Positions 39,559 through 46,417 of a stretch of 61,018 nucleotides of DNA are shown piece by piece; positions within the stretch are counted from its first letter, which is position 1, and the number at the start of each line of letters is the position of its first letter. The stretch spans positions 1 through 61,018 of the forward strand of contig QIBC01000191.1 of NCBI GenBank assembly GCA_003225215.1, written 5' to 3'. The stretch is from Acidobacteriota bacterium. Lineage in GTDB: Bacteria; Acidobacteriota; Terriglobia; Terriglobales; Acidobacteriaceae. The position numbers and the translations under genes were made by a program. The notes under the pieces were generated by a model. It was not told the origin of the DNA, did not search any database, and saw only the letters and a program-made list of their open reading frames with translations.

Positions 39559-40431
39559 TCAGGCATTCGGAAATAGAAAGCGCAGCACCGGTTCCACGCG
39601 CTCCGCCCATGCGGCTTCTTCATGCTTCGCGCCGGGAATGACTTCGTAATGCAGATCCTCGCCTTCCTTCCAGCCCTTAGCGACAAGAGCATCATCGAGG
39701 AGATTCGCGTCACGTACTCCCGTCTTGCTCTCTTCCGTGCCCATCGAGAGCCAGATCTTCAGTCGCGGCTTAGGTTGGGTCTTCTGGATCATTTTGAGAA
39801 TCGCCTTGTTGTCCCACCAGACCGAAGGCGAGAGCACGGCCAGCTTGCCGAAAATTTCAGGATAGGTAAAGCCGAGATAAAGAGTGGCGAGCCCCCCCAG
39901 AGACGATCCTCCGAGGCCGGTGTTATGCGCGTCTGCTAGCGTCCGATATCGTTGTTCGATGAAAGGTTTAAGCTCTTCGATCAGCATGCGTCCATATAGC
40001 TCTGAGTGGCCCCCGCCAAGTTTGCGATCACGAGTTGGGGTGTACTCCTCGATGCGATGCACGCCTGTGTTGAAAATGCCGACGATAATCACGGGCTCGA
40101 TTTCCCCCGCGCGAATTAAGCTATCGGCAGTCTCATCGACCTTCCAATCCATGCCGCGGACGTAGGCTGTCTCCGGATCAAACAGATTCTGCCCGTCGTG
40201 CAGATACAGCACTGGATAGCGCCGTTGGCTGTCTTCGTATTCAGGAGGAAGGTAGACGACCAGATCGCGCCGGTAAGGAACAAATCGTGAAATGAAGTTA
40301 TGGTGCCGCTGGACACTATCGGTGTTGTGCACACCGCCGGTCTGCCTCTCTATGGCTTCGAGCTGCGGCACGGAGTCTTCAAGATCCTCCGCGCCACCTT
40401 GCTCTGCGATATCAAAATTCTCAGTCGGCAT
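39559..40431 (-). CDS. Esterase, enterochelin-esterase-like alpha/beta hydrolase
   Basis: A 290-residue PF00756-type esterase with a 60-residue leader. YPVLYLHDGQNLFDP starts the fold, the nucleophile elbow is GLGGSSLGGLA, and the base histidine is in GAKHEEAAWAERV. No signal peptide. It is divergent from a second PF00756 gene, with only a short spacer between them. Confidence 0.85.
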   Translation of the reverse strand: MPTENFDIAEQGGAEDLEDSVPQLEAIERQTGGVHNTDSVQRHHNFISRFVPYRRDLVVYLPPEYEDSQRRYPVLYLHDGQNLFDPETAYVRGMDWKVDETADSLIRAGEIEPVIIVGIFNTGVHRIEEYTPTRDRKLGGGHSELYGRMLIEELKPFIEQRYRTLADAHNTGLGGSSLGGLATLYLGFTYPEIFGKLAVLSPSVWWDNKAILKMIQKTQPKPRLKIWLSMGTEESKTGVRDANLLDDALVAKGWKEGEDLHYEVIPGAKHEEAAWAERVEPVLRFLFPNA

Positions 40432-40499
40432 CCTTGTTTGTTAGAGTACATGGCTCAGTTAATGTTGCAAGTGAAAACCACCTTACAACTTTCCTCAAC

Positions 40500-41213
40500 A
40501 TGAACCGCGAATATCACAAATGGTGGTCACCGCGTCTTGGACGCGATATGGAGTTGCTGATCTTCGGGCATGCCGGCTTGCCTACGATCGTCTTCCCCAC
40601 ATCGCGTGGGCGTTTCTTCGAATTTGAGGATCGGGGCATGGTCGGCGCCATAGGGCAGAAGATTGAGGGTGGGGGTTTGCACCTCTACTGCGTTGACAGC
40701 GTGGACGAGGAGAGTTGGTACAACAAGAATGTTCCTCCACGCTGGCGCATCGCACGTCACAAGCAGTATGAGGATTACGTGCTGCACGAAGTAGTGCCGC
40801 TCATCAAGCAGAAGAACTCACGCTGGGACTTGGCGACTGCTCGGTGCTCCTTCGGCGGCTATCCCGCGGTGAATATGGCTCTCCGCCGTCCTGATGTAGT
40901 GAGTGGATGTTTGAGCATGGGTGGCGCCTTCGACATCACGCAATTTCTCGATGGCTACTACGACGATGACTGCTACTTCAACAATCCCCCACATTATCTG
41001 AGAAATACGGGTGATTCCTGGCATTTGGATCGTTACCGACAGAACAAGTACGTCCTGGCGACCGGCGAGCACGACATGTGCTGGAACGAAAATGAGCGCC
41101 TCGCCGAGATCATGCGCGAGAAGCGCATTCCGCACCGGCTCGATGTATGGCGCGATCACACCGGCCACGACTGGCCTTGGTGGCAGCGAATGGCTCAGGT
41201 GTATTTCACGTGA
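40500..41213 (+). CDS. PF00756-type esterase of the ATP-grasp/GCS2 cluster
   Basis: A 237-residue alpha/beta hydrolase. The nucleophile elbow is ARCSFGGYPAVN, the acid is in LATGEHDMCW and the base in HTGHDWPWW. It belongs to the small esterase group often placed beside ATP-grasp genes. The start at 40500 is used because the preceding codons are outside the fold. The next gene, in the same direction after 190 bases, is ATP-grasp-like. Possibly it trims or activates a product of that pathway, which is inference. Confidence 0.85.
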   Translation: MNREYHKWWSPRLGRDMELLIFGHAGLPTIVFPTSRGRFFEFEDRGMVGAIGQKIEGGGLHLYCVDSVDEESWYNKNVPPRWRIARHKQYEDYVLHEVVPLIKQKNSRWDLATARCSFGGYPAVNMALRRPDVVSGCLSMGGAFDITQFLDGYYDDDCYFNNPPHYLRNTGDSWHLDRYRQNKYVLATGEHDMCWNENERLAEIMREKRIPHRLDVWRDHTGHDWPWWQRMAQVYFT

Positions 41214-41403
41214 GAGGCAGGAATTAGCGATAGGCAATGAGCAATAAGCTCGCGCGCGGAAGCGCACCGAACGCCGAGAGTAGCCCACATGAGCCGAGTG
41301 GTGGACTGTAACAAGAGGCTCTGAGTTCCCCTCCAACCGGACTGTCTGAGAAGTCTTGCAGCCTTAAGAAGAAGTAGAATAGAAGACCCTCGGAGCTTCT
41401 CAA

Positions 41404-42426
41404 ATGGCCACCAAGAAAATTGGAATCATCTTTGGCATGGAGAACACTTTTCCAGGAGCTTTTGTCGAGAAGGTGAATTCCATGGGTAATCCCGACATCC
41501 AAGCCGAGTTCGTCAAGATCGGCGGCATTCGGATGGCGGAGCCAAGCGGTTATCGTGTGATCGTAGACCGCATCTCACACGATATTCCGTTTTATCGTGC
41601 GTATCTGAAGAACGCCGCGCTGAACGGCACGATCGTCATCAACAATTCTTTCTGGTGGAGCGCGGACGACAAATTTTTTAACTATGCGCTGGCTGAAAAG
41701 CTGGGCGTTGCGGTGCCGGCAACTGTGATCCTTCCGCATAAGGAGCATCCGCCGGGAACCACCGATCAATCGATGCGCAACCTGATCTATCCGATGAACT
41801 GGGATGAGGTCTTTCAGTACGTCCAGTTTCCGGCATTTCTCAAGCCGTTCGACGGTGGCGGATGGCGGGACGTATATCACGTTCACACTCCCGAAGATTT
41901 CTTTCGTGCCTACGATCAGACGCGCGATCTCTGCATGACACTCCAGCGCGCGGTCAAGTTCGAGGAGTATTTCCGTTGCTATGTTGTCGGGCAAGAGAAG
42001 GTGCACATCATGCAGTACGATCCGCGCCGGCCCCAGCACGAGCGCTACGTCAAAGACGGTCCCAAGATTGATCCTAAGCTGCTGGAGCGAGTGGAGCAGG
42101 ACGCGCTTACGCTCTGTCGCGCGCTCGGTTATGACCTGAACACCGTCGAGTTTGCGTGTGAAGACGGAATTCCTTATGCCATCGACTTCATGAATCCGGC
42201 TCCAGATGCGGATGTGAATTCGGTTGGGCAACAGAACTTCGATTGGATCGTCAATAGTGTTGCCGAGCTAGCTGTGAAGAAGGCGTTGAGCGACGAGAAT
42301 CCGGCTCGGGATCTTCGCTGGTCGGCGTTTCTCACAGGCAGGGCGGAGGCGGAAGCGCTTAGGAAAGCGCCGTTGAAGACGGCTAGCCGCACCAAGGCAA
42401 AATCGGAGGCGTCGGCAGCCATTTAG
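41404..42426 (+). CDS. ATP-grasp-like protein (RimK/D-Ala ligase type)
   Basis: A 340-residue protein with ATP-grasp motifs: NNSFWWSADDKFFNYALAEK then VPATVILP (pre-ATP domain), PAFLKPFDGGGWRDV (nucleotide lysine and glycine loop), KFEEYFRCYVVG (the EEY strand), and NTVEFACEDG then AIDFMNPAPDAD (metal ligands). The C-terminal 40 residues are basic and Ala-rich. The fold forms an amide or similar bond using ATP and a carboxylate; substrates unknown. AGCTTCTCAA precedes the start without a strong ribosome site. Followed by a repeat-rich spacer and the GCS2 gene. Confidence 0.8.
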   Translation: MATKKIGIIFGMENTFPGAFVEKVNSMGNPDIQAEFVKIGGIRMAEPSGYRVIVDRISHDIPFYRAYLKNAALNGTIVINNSFWWSADDKFFNYALAEKLGVAVPATVILPHKEHPPGTTDQSMRNLIYPMNWDEVFQYVQFPAFLKPFDGGGWRDVYHVHTPEDFFRAYDQTRDLCMTLQRAVKFEEYFRCYVVGQEKVHIMQYDPRRPQHERYVKDGPKIDPKLLERVEQDALTLCRALGYDLNTVEFACEDGIPYAIDFMNPAPDADVNSVGQQNFDWIVNSVAELAVKKALSDENPARDLRWSAFLTGRAEAEALRKAPLKTASRTKAKSEASAAI

Positions 42427-42461
42427 ATCTGGAGGTCTGCGGAATATCCGTAAACACAAGA

Positions 42462-42662
42462 GTCAAGAACAGCGAAATAAACAGGGGTTTTTCGAATTCG
42501 GCGAAGAAATCATCGAATTCTGCCCAAAATATGAAAATTTCGCTCAAAACCAGGGAATTAACAGGGAACTCTGTGGATTTCCTCCTAATCAACGATCAAC
42601 AAAGCAGTTAAATGGTATTTTGCAAAGATTCAGAAAATTAACAGGGAATCAGCAGGGAATTT
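42462..42662 (+). repeat. About 200-base dispersed repeat, copy 1
   Basis: A stretch containing repeated CAGGGAATTAACAGGGAA words and TCGAATTCTGCCCAAAAT, resembling 58336-58534 in the same order and orientation. No gene. It separates the ATP-grasp and GCS2 genes. Confidence 0.7.
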
Positions 42663-42707
42663 TCTTCCCGAATTGGTCCTTGAAGCCAGCTCGAAGCGAG
42701 CATTGTG

Positions 42708-43841
42708 ATGAAGCCGTCATTCACCATAGGTATTGAAGAGGAATATCAGACCATCGATCCCGAAAGCCGCGACCTGCGTTCGCACATCCACAGCGAGATC
42801 ATCGCCAAGGGCAAGCGGATCATGGAAGAGCAGATCAAGGCCGAGATGCACCAGTCCGTGGTCGAAGTCGGCACCGGCGTCTGCAAGAACATCAAGGAAG
42901 CCAAGAAAGACATCCGCAAGCTGCGCCGGGACATGATCGGCCTCGCTCGCGACAACGGACTCTTGCTTGCCGCGGGTGCGACGCATCCGTTTGCGGACTG
43001 GCGCGCGCAGGAGATCTATCCTGACGAACGCTATCGCAAAGTTGTTGAAGACTTGCAGCTGGTGGCACGCACCAATCTGATCTTTGGATTACATGTTCAC
43101 GTGGGCATTGAAGATCGCGAAACGACCATCCATCTGATGAATCAGGCGCGGTATTTTCTTCCGCATCTGCTCGCGCTGTCGGCAAACTCGCCGTTCTGGC
43201 TGGGCATGAAGACGGGACTCAAGTCTTATCGTTGCAAGGTGTTCGACAAATTCCCGCGAACCAACATCCCCAATTCGTATTCCAGTTGGTCGGAATACGA
43301 AAACTTCGTGAATCTGCTGATCAAGACCAACTGCATCGATAACGCGAAGAAAATCTGGTGGGACATTCGCCCGCATCCGTTCTTCAGCACCCTCGAGTTT
43401 CGTGTATGCGATATTCCCATGCGGCTCGAAGAGACGATCGCACTGGCCGCGCTTATTCAAGCCACCATTGCGAAACTCTACCGGCTGCACTCGCGCAATC
43501 AGGGATTCCGCATCTATGGCCGAGCCCTGCTGATGGAGAACAAGTGGCGCGCAGCGCGTTACGGTCTCGACGGCAAGCTGATCGATTTCGGCATCGAGGC
43601 CGAGGTGAACGAGCGCGATTTAATCTACGAGTATTTGGAATTTGTGGATGACACACTCGATGAGCTGGAAAGCCGTGAGGAGATCAACTACATTCATCGT
43701 ATCCTCGAGATGGGCAACGGCGCCGACCGTCAACTGAAAGTATTTGAAGAAACAGGAGACCTGAAGAGAGTGGTTGATTACATGGTGGAAGAAACCAAAG
43801 TGGGTGTATTCGACACCGAAGCCGCGTCGGTGACCCACTGA
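42708..43841 (+). CDS. Carboxylate-amine ligase, GCS2/YbdK family
   Basis: A 377-residue glutamate-cysteine-ligase-like enzyme. FTIGIEEEYQTIDPES, ATHPFADW, FGLHVHVGIEDRE and EFRVCDIPMRLEETIAL are the metal and substrate signatures. The family forms gamma-amide bonds between a carboxylate and an amine. A GTG at 42705 is an alternative start. The stop overlaps the next start as TGATG, so it is translationally coupled to the peptidase. Confidence 0.9.
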   Translation: MKPSFTIGIEEEYQTIDPESRDLRSHIHSEIIAKGKRIMEEQIKAEMHQSVVEVGTGVCKNIKEAKKDIRKLRRDMIGLARDNGLLLAAGATHPFADWRAQEIYPDERYRKVVEDLQLVARTNLIFGLHVHVGIEDRETTIHLMNQARYFLPHLLALSANSPFWLGMKTGLKSYRCKVFDKFPRTNIPNSYSSWSEYENFVNLLIKTNCIDNAKKIWWDIRPHPFFSTLEFRVCDIPMRLEETIALAALIQATIAKLYRLHSRNQGFRIYGRALLMENKWRAARYGLDGKLIDFGIEAEVNERDLIYEYLEFVDDTLDELESREEINYIHRILEMGNGADRQLKVFEETGDLKRVVDYMVEETKVGVFDTEAASVTH

Positions 43842-44902
43842 TGCCGCTTAGCAGTTCGCAGAGCACCGCTGTCCACACAGCCGAGCGACTGAGAAACCTT
43901 CCTTTTGATCCGGAATTGAGCCCCGGAGCCCGCAACGCGGTTCGCGTCTGCTTGCGCATACAGCCTACGGAGAAGGTCACGATCATCACCGACAAGGTGA
44001 CGCGGGAGATCGCTGCGAGTCTGGCGCACGAAGTGGATGCCGTAGGCGCGCCTCTCAACGTGTTCTTGCTCGAGGAGCTTGCGCCGCGTCCGCTGACGGG
44101 AATGCCGGCGGAGGTGCTCGAAGACCTCGAGAGCAGCCAGGTAAGCATCTTCGCCGTGCAGGTGCAAACCAACGAGCTGCGCTCGCGGATGCAGATGACG
44201 GAGATCGTAAATCGCCGTCGCATCCGGCACGCGCACATGGTCAACATTAATCGGCAGATCATGCTCGAAGGCATGCGCGCCGATTTCCTGAAAGTCGATC
44301 GCATCAGTAGCAAAGTGCTGGAGCTGGTGAGCGCGGCCAAGCAGATCAAAGCGAAGACCGCTGCCGGGAGCGATCTGGTCGCCGATCTCGAGCCGAGCTA
44401 TCGCTGGCTCAAAACGAGCGGGCTGATTAGTCCGGACAAGTGGGGGAACCTGCCTGGCGGTGAGGTCTTCACCACACCTGGCGAGGTGAATGGCACCTTC
44501 GTGATCGACGGCGTAGTTGGAGATTACTTGTGCGAGAAGTTCGGCGACTTGAAAGAGGCGCCGCTCACGATTCGCATGAAGGGGAACCGGCTCGCGGAAG
44601 CTCACAGTGAGAACAAAGAGCTGGAGCGCGACTTCTGGGCTTACACCCATACGGACGAAAATAGCGATCGCGTAGGTGAGTTCGCCATCGGCACCAACAT
44701 CGAATTGAAGGACGTGATCGGGCACATCCTGCAAGACGAAAAATTTCCTGGGATCCACATTGCGTTCGGCAATCCTTACGGTGAGCACACCGGAGCCAAG
44801 TGGTATTCGTCGACACATATCGACGTGGTCGGCCGGCGCTTTGATATCTGGGTGGACGGCAACCAGATCATGCGCGAAGGCAAGTTTTTGATCGAAGCGT
44901 AA
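43841..44902 (+). CDS. M29-type aminopeptidase
   Basis: A 353-residue protein of the aminopeptidase T/M29 type. The metal signatures are WGNLPGGEVFTTP (Glu), GEFAIGTNIEL (Glu), and FPGIHIAFGNPYGEHTG then SSTHIDVVGR (His). It would remove N-terminal residues from short peptides. The coupling to the GCS2 ligase suggests it handles an intermediate or product of that pathway, or has become a related hydrolase. Confidence 0.8.
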   Translation: MPLSSSQSTAVHTAERLRNLPFDPELSPGARNAVRVCLRIQPTEKVTIITDKVTREIAASLAHEVDAVGAPLNVFLLEELAPRPLTGMPAEVLEDLESSQVSIFAVQVQTNELRSRMQMTEIVNRRRIRHAHMVNINRQIMLEGMRADFLKVDRISSKVLELVSAAKQIKAKTAAGSDLVADLEPSYRWLKTSGLISPDKWGNLPGGEVFTTPGEVNGTFVIDGVVGDYLCEKFGDLKEAPLTIRMKGNRLAEAHSENKELERDFWAYTHTDENSDRVGEFAIGTNIELKDVIGHILQDEKFPGIHIAFGNPYGEHTGAKWYSSTHIDVVGRRFDIWVDGNQIMREGKFLIEA

Positions 44903-45026
44903 GACCGGTTCACCACGGAGACACGGAGTTCACGGAGGAATGTGAATTAGGTCGTGAACGCTTCGTTCCGATAATGAGCTTCCTATAGGACTGTCATCCT
45001 GAATGCCGGGGCGGTCCTATTAGGAT

Positions 45027-45196
45027 TGTCATCCTGAGCCCGTCTTTTGGGCGAAGGATCTCCCGCGATGCGTCAGCCGTAATTGCACTGTCGAGGCTCT
45101 TTCACGAGAATTCTGGCCGGCGTGCCGAGACAGGGCGATCAAGTCCAAAGTATTCCGGGAGATCCTTCGTCCGCCACCGGCGGGCTCAGGATGACA
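45027..45196. repeat. MITE-like inverted repeat with TGTCATCCTGAG ends
   Basis: Left arm 45027-45065 and right arm 45156-45196 are near inverted copies (TGTCATCCTGAGCCCG on one end, CGGGCTCAGGATGACA on the other; inner GGATCTCCCG and CGGGAGATCC). About 90 bases lie between. A partial left arm lies at 44991, and CACGGAG words at 44912-44937. The whole 44903-45220 spacer holds no gene. The same design appears at 48499-48626. Confidence 0.75.
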
Positions 45197-45220
45197 GACT
45201 TTTAGACATGTGTCCCTGAG

Positions 45221-46417
45221 ATGATTTCCCACCTTCGTCGTCCATTCAACCAAAACTTCACATCTGAGAAGTACAGCAACTTCCTGGCAGCCCTCGACCG
45301 CCGTTGCGGCACTCCCATCAAATTCCGTGTGGCCGAGACTCCGTGCTTCTTTCCTAAATCGCTACTCGATCAAATGGCCGAAGACGGTCGCCTGCTGGTG
45401 AATCAGCTGCTTGAGAGCCCCGAGTATCGCAAGCGATCCGACGTGACGATTCCGCGCGAATACAACGTTCCGAATGAATCGAAGCGGCCGATGTTCCTGC
45501 AGGTTGACTTCGGCCTTACGCGCAACAAGCAAGGCGGGCTGGAACCGAAGCTGGTTGAGCTGCAGGCGTTTCCTTCGCTCTACGCGTATCAACCTGCTCT
45601 GACTCAGGAATATTGCAAGAGTTACTCGCTCGATCCGGAGCTTCATACATTCCTGTCCGGGCTGGATTTCGAGGGTTATCGCCAACTGCTATGTCGAGCG
45701 ATTCTCGGCGGGCACTCTCCAGAGAACGTGATTCTCCTGGAGATCGATCCACTGGAGCAGAAGACGTTGCCGGATTTCCTGCTGACGAAGGAATCATGTG
45801 GCATCGAGACCGTGAATGTACTCGACCTGAAGAAGCAGGGAAGAGCGCTGTACTGCGAAAGGAACGGCAGGCAGGTGCGCGTAGAGCGAATTTACAACCG
45901 CATGATCGTCGATGAAGTCATGCGCAAGGGAATCAAGCTACCATTCGATCTTCGCGACGATCTCGAAGTTGAGTGGGCCGGACATCCCAACTGGTATTTT
46001 CGTATCAGTAAATTCTCCATTCCCTTTCTGAAACACGAATCTGTGCCGCGTACGTGGTTCCTCGACGAACTGAGCACGATGCCGGGTGATCGAGAGAACT
46101 ACCTGCTGAAGCCGCTATATTCTTTCGCGGGGATAGGGATCAAGTTTGCGCCTACAGACGAAGACATTGCCGCGATCCCGCCGGAGCAGCGCCATGAGTA
46201 CATCATCCAGGAGCGGATCGCCTTTGAGCCGGTTATTGACACGCCTCATGGCATGACGCAGGCTGAGGTCCGCATTATGTACATCTGGTTAGACTCCGAC
46301 CCGCAGCCCACGCCGGTACTCACGCTCGTCCGCATGGGACGCGGCAAGATGATGGGCGTCGATCACAACCGCAATCTCGAATGGGTCGGCGGATCGGCCG
46401 GACTGTGGGTCGAGTAA
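45221..46417 (+). CDS. ATP-grasp-like protein resembling glutathionylspermidine-synthase type
   Basis: A 398-residue protein without a known family name. The order of motifs recalls GSP-synthase-like ATP-grasp proteins: VDFGLTRNKQGGL then PKLVELQAFPSLYAYQPA (acidic metal-binding strand first), later NYLLKPLYSFAGIGIKF (lysine and glycine loop) and IIQERI then AEVRIMYIW. It is separated from the M29 gene by a MITE-like element but keeps the direction of the cluster. It could form another amide bond on the same pathway. Function inferred from fold only. Confidence 0.65.
   Translation: MISHLRRPFNQNFTSEKYSNFLAALDRRCGTPIKFRVAETPCFFPKSLLDQMAEDGRLLVNQLLESPEYRKRSDVTIPREYNVPNESKRPMFLQVDFGLTRNKQGGLEPKLVELQAFPSLYAYQPALTQEYCKSYSLDPELHTFLSGLDFEGYRQLLCRAILGGHSPENVILLEIDPLEQKTLPDFLLTKESCGIETVNVLDLKKQGRALYCERNGRQVRVERIYNRMIVDEVMRKGIKLPFDLRDDLEVEWAGHPNWYFRISKFSIPFLKHESVPRTWFLDELSTMPGDRENYLLKPLYSFAGIGIKFAPTDEDIAAIPPEQRHEYIIQERIAFEPVIDTPHGMTQAEVRIMYIWLDSDPQPTPVLTLVRMGRGKMMGVDHNRNLEWVGGSAGLWVE

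Follow-up and report, generated by a model that had tools for sequence, protein, structure and literature searches.

Three predicted amide-forming ligases, a peptidase and esterases in a conserved Acidobacteriota gene neighbourhood

Amidoligase operons, which link several amide ligases of different folds to peptidases, were reportedly predicted computationally by Iyer et al. in 2009 (doi 10.1039/b917682a), and we know of no product that has been assigned to them experimentally. Two better-described systems use related enzymes. Glutathione biosynthesis pairs a GCS2-type ligase for its first step with a eukaryotic-type synthetase that is circularly permuted, and the E-64 pathway of fungi achieves NRPS-free small-molecule amide synthesis with the ligase Cp1B (PDB 9cjn) and a second ligase of the ANL type (PMC12568646). 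More generally, linked peptide ligases often act one after the other when peptide metabolites and cofactors are built (PMC4431377).

Here we analysed a 61,018-nt stretch (positions 1–61,018 of contig QIBC01000191.1, assembly GCA_003225215.1) of an Acidobacteriota bacterium of the Acidobacteriaceae, hereafter the window, which carries a set of three such ligases together with hydrolases (Table 1). Like the predicted amidoligase operons, the set combines amide ligases of different folds with a peptidase, and at least two of its non-ribosomal peptide ligases are linked to peptidases in conserved neighbourhoods. Linked amidoligase operons are already a known kind, of which the Acidobacteriota set is a variant. 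As in glutathione biosynthesis, a GCS2 ligase occurs with a circularly permuted synthetase of the AG2 fold, but the cluster also encodes a peptidase, esterases and a ligase of the RimK fold. The E-64 pathway likewise uses a ligase of the AG2 fold (AG2 against Cp1B, Z = 20), but it contains neither a GCS2 ligase nor an M29 peptidase (PMC12568646). Our literature search returned no paper joining YbdK with ATP-grasp enzymes, or carboxylate-amine ligases with Acidobacteria; the exact neighbourhood may already be drawn in Iyer et al. 2009. We propose, with a probability of roughly 0.55, that the core est2–AG1–GCS2–M29–AG2, with est1 as an optional member, is one unit encoding an NRPS-independent pathway in which a small soluble molecule receives several amide bonds in succession.

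Table 1. Features of the gene set in the window, and loci in other genomes that carry replacement genes (coordinates of the respective locus)
Feature	Coordinates	Strand	Description
est1	39559..40431	-	PF00756 alpha/beta-hydrolase esterase, enterochelin-esterase-like; divergent, optional member
est2	40500..41213	+	PF00756 alpha/beta-hydrolase esterase; core member
AG1	41404..42426	+	ATP-grasp ligase, RimK/LysX/D-Ala-D-Ala ligase fold; no Pfam family
GCS2	42708..43841	+	Predicted YbdK-type carboxylate-amine (glutamate-cysteine-ligase-like) ligase
M29	43841..44902	+	Predicted M29-like metallo-aminopeptidase; overlaps GCS2 by 1 base
MITE-like inverted-repeat element	44983..45205	.	Between M29 and AG2
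AG2	45221..46417	+	Circularly permuted ATP-grasp, glutathione synthetase/YgiC/glutathionylspermidine synthetase fold; no Pfam family
CP_ATPgrasp_2/1-type replacement loci	L037 8097-9449; L201; L202; L204; L206; L207; L218		
Amidotransferase-like replacement loci	L036 5888-6916; L157 6969-8024; L158 9804-10880; L159 9555-10568; L163 9416-10417; L218 10904-12058		

The sequence-only reading had placed two esterases, two ATP-grasp proteins, a GCS2 ligase and an M29 peptidase between positions 39559 and 46417. All six open reading frames are present, with two starts revised: est2 begins at a conserved ATG at 40500 (MNREYHK...) rather than at the TTG at 40434, and GCS2 probably begins at the ATG at 42708. 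The TGATG coupling of GCS2 and M29 was likewise confirmed, the stop codon occupying 43839–43841 and the start codon 43841–43843. The set lies downstream of glgA and upstream of an M28 peptidase gene. Some of its genes are separated in the window by gaps of 190–318 bp, so a single transcript is at most putative, and we count this spacing against reading the genes as one unit. The wider gaps nevertheless look secondary, because some loci are tightly packed; in one of them (L100), AG1, GCS2, M29 and AG2 are separated by 17, 5 and −4 bp. No structured RNA in the region exceeded the Rfam thresholds, and none of the six proteins matched a PADLOC model of anti-phage defence at E 0.001.

GCS2 matches PF04107 in Pfam above the curated cut-off (E = 8e-64) and the carboxylate-amine ligase family NF010039/TIGR02050 with 546 bits against a cut-off of 371. 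The GIEE motif is kept, and residues G9, E11, E12, E54 and R233, aligned to YbdK (1r8g), are invariant across 87 sequences. Judged by its sequence, GCS2 is a predicted YbdK/GCS2 carboxylate-amine ligase, the one protein of the YbdK kind in the source genome. AG1 matches no Pfam family and scores only 24.5 bits against the RimK family TIGR00768, below the cut-off of 143.4. Its predicted model (pLDDT 81) resembles RimK, LysX and D-Ala-D-Ala ligases (Z about 19–22), with RimK at the top (Z = 22) and LysX and D-Ala-D-Ala ligase at Z = 20–21. AG1 and the RimK/LysX ligases have the fold in common (Z = 21–22), yet they are 16–18% identical, and the presumed metal-site motif is D-F-M-N in AG1 against the usual E-x-N. 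Across 110 sequences, K147, Q181, E249, D261 and N264 are invariant or nearly so.

The ATP-grasp nature of AG2, merely suggested at first, gained support from a confident model (pLDDT 86.5) that matches glutathione synthetases and YgiC at Z = 22–24. AG2 has no Pfam match at E 0.01, does not match the curated glutathionylspermidine synthetase family, and has no counterpart of the amidase domain in E. coli GspS. Its structural matches extend over 320–370 residues, nearly the whole length (Z = 20–24; Foldseek E = 1e-9 to 6e-13 among the top matches), and comprise YgiC, the human, yeast and plant glutathione synthetases, glutathionylspermidine synthetase and Cp1B. Identity to solved glutathione synthetases is about 11–16%, and the fold is like that of glutathionylspermidine synthetase, YgiC and YjfC (Z = 21–24 over 330–360 residues). 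Residues E113, Q115, R227, K297, G304, R351 and N383 are invariant across 65 sequences. By analogy with the fold families, the conserved residues of AG1 and AG2 would take part in ATP and metal binding. We favour a small-molecule substrate because the structural matches of AG2 include glutathione synthetase and Cp1B, both of which couple small acids with amines.

Other families have a CP_ATPgrasp_2/1-type ligase where AG2 would stand beside AG1, often together with GCS2 (Table 1). Predicted peptide-tagging operons (Alpha-E/transglutaminase operons) contain ligases of the CP_ATPgrasp_2 type. This replacement, and the position of RimK as best structural match of AG1, would fit a scheme in which the ligases modify a protein or a cell-surface polymer, AG1 extending a protein C-terminus as RimK does on S6, and M29 or the amidotransferase-like hydrolase described below removing the additions. 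We consider such tagging unlikely, given that LysX and D-Ala-D-Ala ligase match AG1 nearly as well as RimK, that characterised enzymes of the GCS2 and glutathione-synthetase-like types use small molecules, and that no target protein or precursor gene is conserved beside the cluster. Unlike RimK/LysX systems, the neighbourhood also has no conserved S6- or LysW-like partner gene.

M29 matches PF02073 (E = 1.9e-11, 43.9 bits against a gathering score of 27). Residues E208, E280, H306, Y313, H326 and D328 are invariant across 66 sequences; five of them, E208, E280, H306, H326 and D328, correspond to the metal ligands of the M29 family (Glu, Glu, His, His, Asp), and the two Glu and one His align to AmpS (1zjc). 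The gene product is therefore a predicted aminopeptidase of the M29 family. Among PDB sequences its best match is NicX, a ring-cleaving iron dioxygenase, to which it scores closer than to AmpS. We rejected a NicX-type dioxygenase, since M29 keeps both glutamate ligands of its family in all 66 sequences, and NicX is without them in the alignment. The esterases match PF00756 in Pfam with E = 1.5e-33 (est1) and 1.2e-6 (est2). The catalytic triad of est2, Ser139/Asp214/His245 in the numbering from the 40434 start, is conserved in 74, 72 and 75 of 75 sequences, respectively. With their catalytic residues intact, the enzymes of the cluster look active.

In several other families, the M29 slot is filled by a protein of about 330–385 residues (Table 1), for which we found no Pfam family and nothing relevant in the PDB. 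We assigned it as amidotransferase-like because of its conserved Cys (CHxxG) and NHHPE motifs. Among 38 AG2-bearing genomes, M29 occurs in 21, the amidotransferase-like protein in 12 and both in none, a lack of overlap with a probability of 2e-6 when relatedness is ignored. The amidotransferase-type superfamily includes the gamma-glutamyl hydrolase PuuD. The Cys and His-Pro-Glu motifs of the replacement, and the presence of a single hydrolase type in most AG2-bearing genomes, could thus speak for amine or amino-acid utilisation resembling the E. coli Puu pathway, in which GCS2 would glutamylate an amine that is later converted and the hydrolase would remove the glutamyl group. This route appears distinctly improbable: the neighbourhood has no conserved oxidase, dehydrogenase or amine transporter, and glutamylation needs fewer than three ligases.

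To assess the neighbourhood, we scanned public genomes with AG1, which yielded 549 encoded relatives, and kept the best 80 loci. All of these 80 are labelled as Acidobacteriota or groups within it. GCS2 adjoins AG1 in 74 of the 80, est2 is near it in 62, M29 in 60, and AG2 in 42 by strict clustering or 47 by profile score; genes missing from a locus often reflect contig ends. The next commonest neighbour, a kinase family, occurs in 11 of these best 80 loci, in which we found no conserved dedicated transporter, regulator or tailoring enzyme. In this respect the cluster differs from many secreted natural products. The order est2–AG1–GCS2–M29–AG2 is retained across genera and orders, in the Acidobacteriaceae and the Bryobacterales, with AG2 inverted in one of the 80 loci, and AG1 and GCS2 form the most constant pair across Acidobacteriota. 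The flanking GlgA and M28 peptidase genes stay beside the cluster within the genus only, which argues against a chance neighbourhood. The membership of est1 held in part: it lies divergently beside est2 in 26 of the best 80 loci, and it falls outside the constant core.

The genes are also gained and lost together. Of 61 related genomes, 19 carry AG1, 17 GCS2, 16 M29, 15 AG2 and 19 est2, with contig-end fragments counted as present and two GCS2 paralogues at 35% identity left out. In these genomes GCS2, M29 and AG2 never occur without AG1; joint presence and absence gives Fisher p values of 3e-13 to 5e-11, which ignore relatedness and are thus descriptive. Among 297 genomes sampled from the phylum, 36 of the 38 with AG2 and 22 of the 23 with M29 also have AG1, and the remaining cases are decayed or fragmentary. 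Distance matrices of the five proteins, calculated over 33 complete loci, correlate with r = 0.81–0.88, consistent with joint inheritance. Scattered orthologues in related genomes, which the sequence-only reading had named as the finding that would speak against it, were looked for and not seen, either in the order of the 80 loci or in the joint presence among the 61 relatives. A coincidental adjacency of unrelated enzymes, to which the loose spacing in the window and the inconstancy of est1 might point, is almost certainly not the explanation; for the five-gene core it is contradicted by the phylum-wide order, the joint gain and loss, and joint decay in one genus.

The same 61 genomes bear on a glutathione-like thiol or tripeptide cofactor, in which GCS2 would act as GshA and AG2 as glutathione synthetase. 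By fold and family, these two proteins do match both steps of glutathione synthesis. The bacillithiol synthase family BshC is nevertheless found in 59 of the 61 relatives, with or without the cluster and thus in carriers too, and 42 of the 61 are without the cluster altogether; the cluster is therefore unlikely to be the general thiol pathway or a simple replacement of glutathione. As the third ligase and the esterase would also be left unexplained, we regard a thiol pathway as very improbable.

The description as an amide-bond-forming cluster is thus well supported: the three ligases have folds known for amide formation, their active-site residues are invariant, and the genes keep their order and are gained and lost together. 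Under our reading of a pathway acting on one small molecule, GCS2 would couple an amine or amino acid to a carboxylate of glutamate or of a related acid. AG1 and AG2 would then add amino-acid or amine units via acyl-phosphates, as do RimK/LysX/Ddl and glutathione synthetase. M29, or the amidotransferase-like hydrolase in other lineages, may trim an intermediate or recycle the product, and the esterase or esterases may remove or transfer an ester group. From the fold class and the usual roles of linked amidoligases, we infer that the product would be a small peptide or amide, perhaps a gamma-glutamyl one. The later steps appear to differ or to be optional, because some families have AG1 and GCS2 but no M29 or AG2. 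More tentatively, the cluster might make a new class of gamma-glutamyl or related peptides widespread in Acidobacteriota, with GCS2 and AG1 constant and the permuted ligase and hydrolase swapped by lineage, so that the end products would differ.

Acidobacteriota count among the commonest bacteria of soil, and their small-molecule chemistry is little known. The cluster is compact and well conserved and is probably a complete pathway of few enzymes, with two of its three ligases outside curated Pfam families. Cultured carriers include Bryocella elongata, Terriglobus roseus, Acidipila rosea, Silvibacterium bohemicum and Edaphobacter lichenicola, some of whose loci are partial within the 10 kb seen. 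B. elongata DSM 22489 carries the full set of six. The product can be searched for directly in these strains, and natural presence and absence among close relatives offers ready comparisons.

Conservation of the gene set, for which a check across phyla had been proposed, was examined within Acidobacteriota and held there; the matches seen outside the phylum were lone GCS2 and est2 homologues and distant M29 relatives, on plasmids. A search of 72,556 plasmids found no true relative of AG1 or AG2, and the GCS2 and est2 homologues inspected on plasmids had no ligase partners beside them. Relatives of est2, about 40% identical, lie on Pseudomonadota plasmids (NZ_CP020371 407366–408094; Rhizobium plasmids); the surroundings of the only annotated case (Thiodictyon) contain no ligase gene.

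In genus g137 (G208/L160 and G191), GCS2 is a fragment and M29 and AG2 are interrupted by stops or cut short, the cluster decaying jointly; AG1 was not found in these genomes. Within the window, the gap between AG1 and GCS2 (42427–42704) is AT-rich with repeated AATTAACAGGGAA motifs. The short inverted-repeat element between M29 and AG2 has arms TGTCATCCTGAGCCCG. A 13-base segment of these arms is present 34 and 32 times (66 sites in genome G000), against once for a reversed control, and its copies often form facing pairs about 150–165 bp apart. From this copy number and pairing we assign the element to a MITE-like family; it is probably an insertion and no working part of the cluster.
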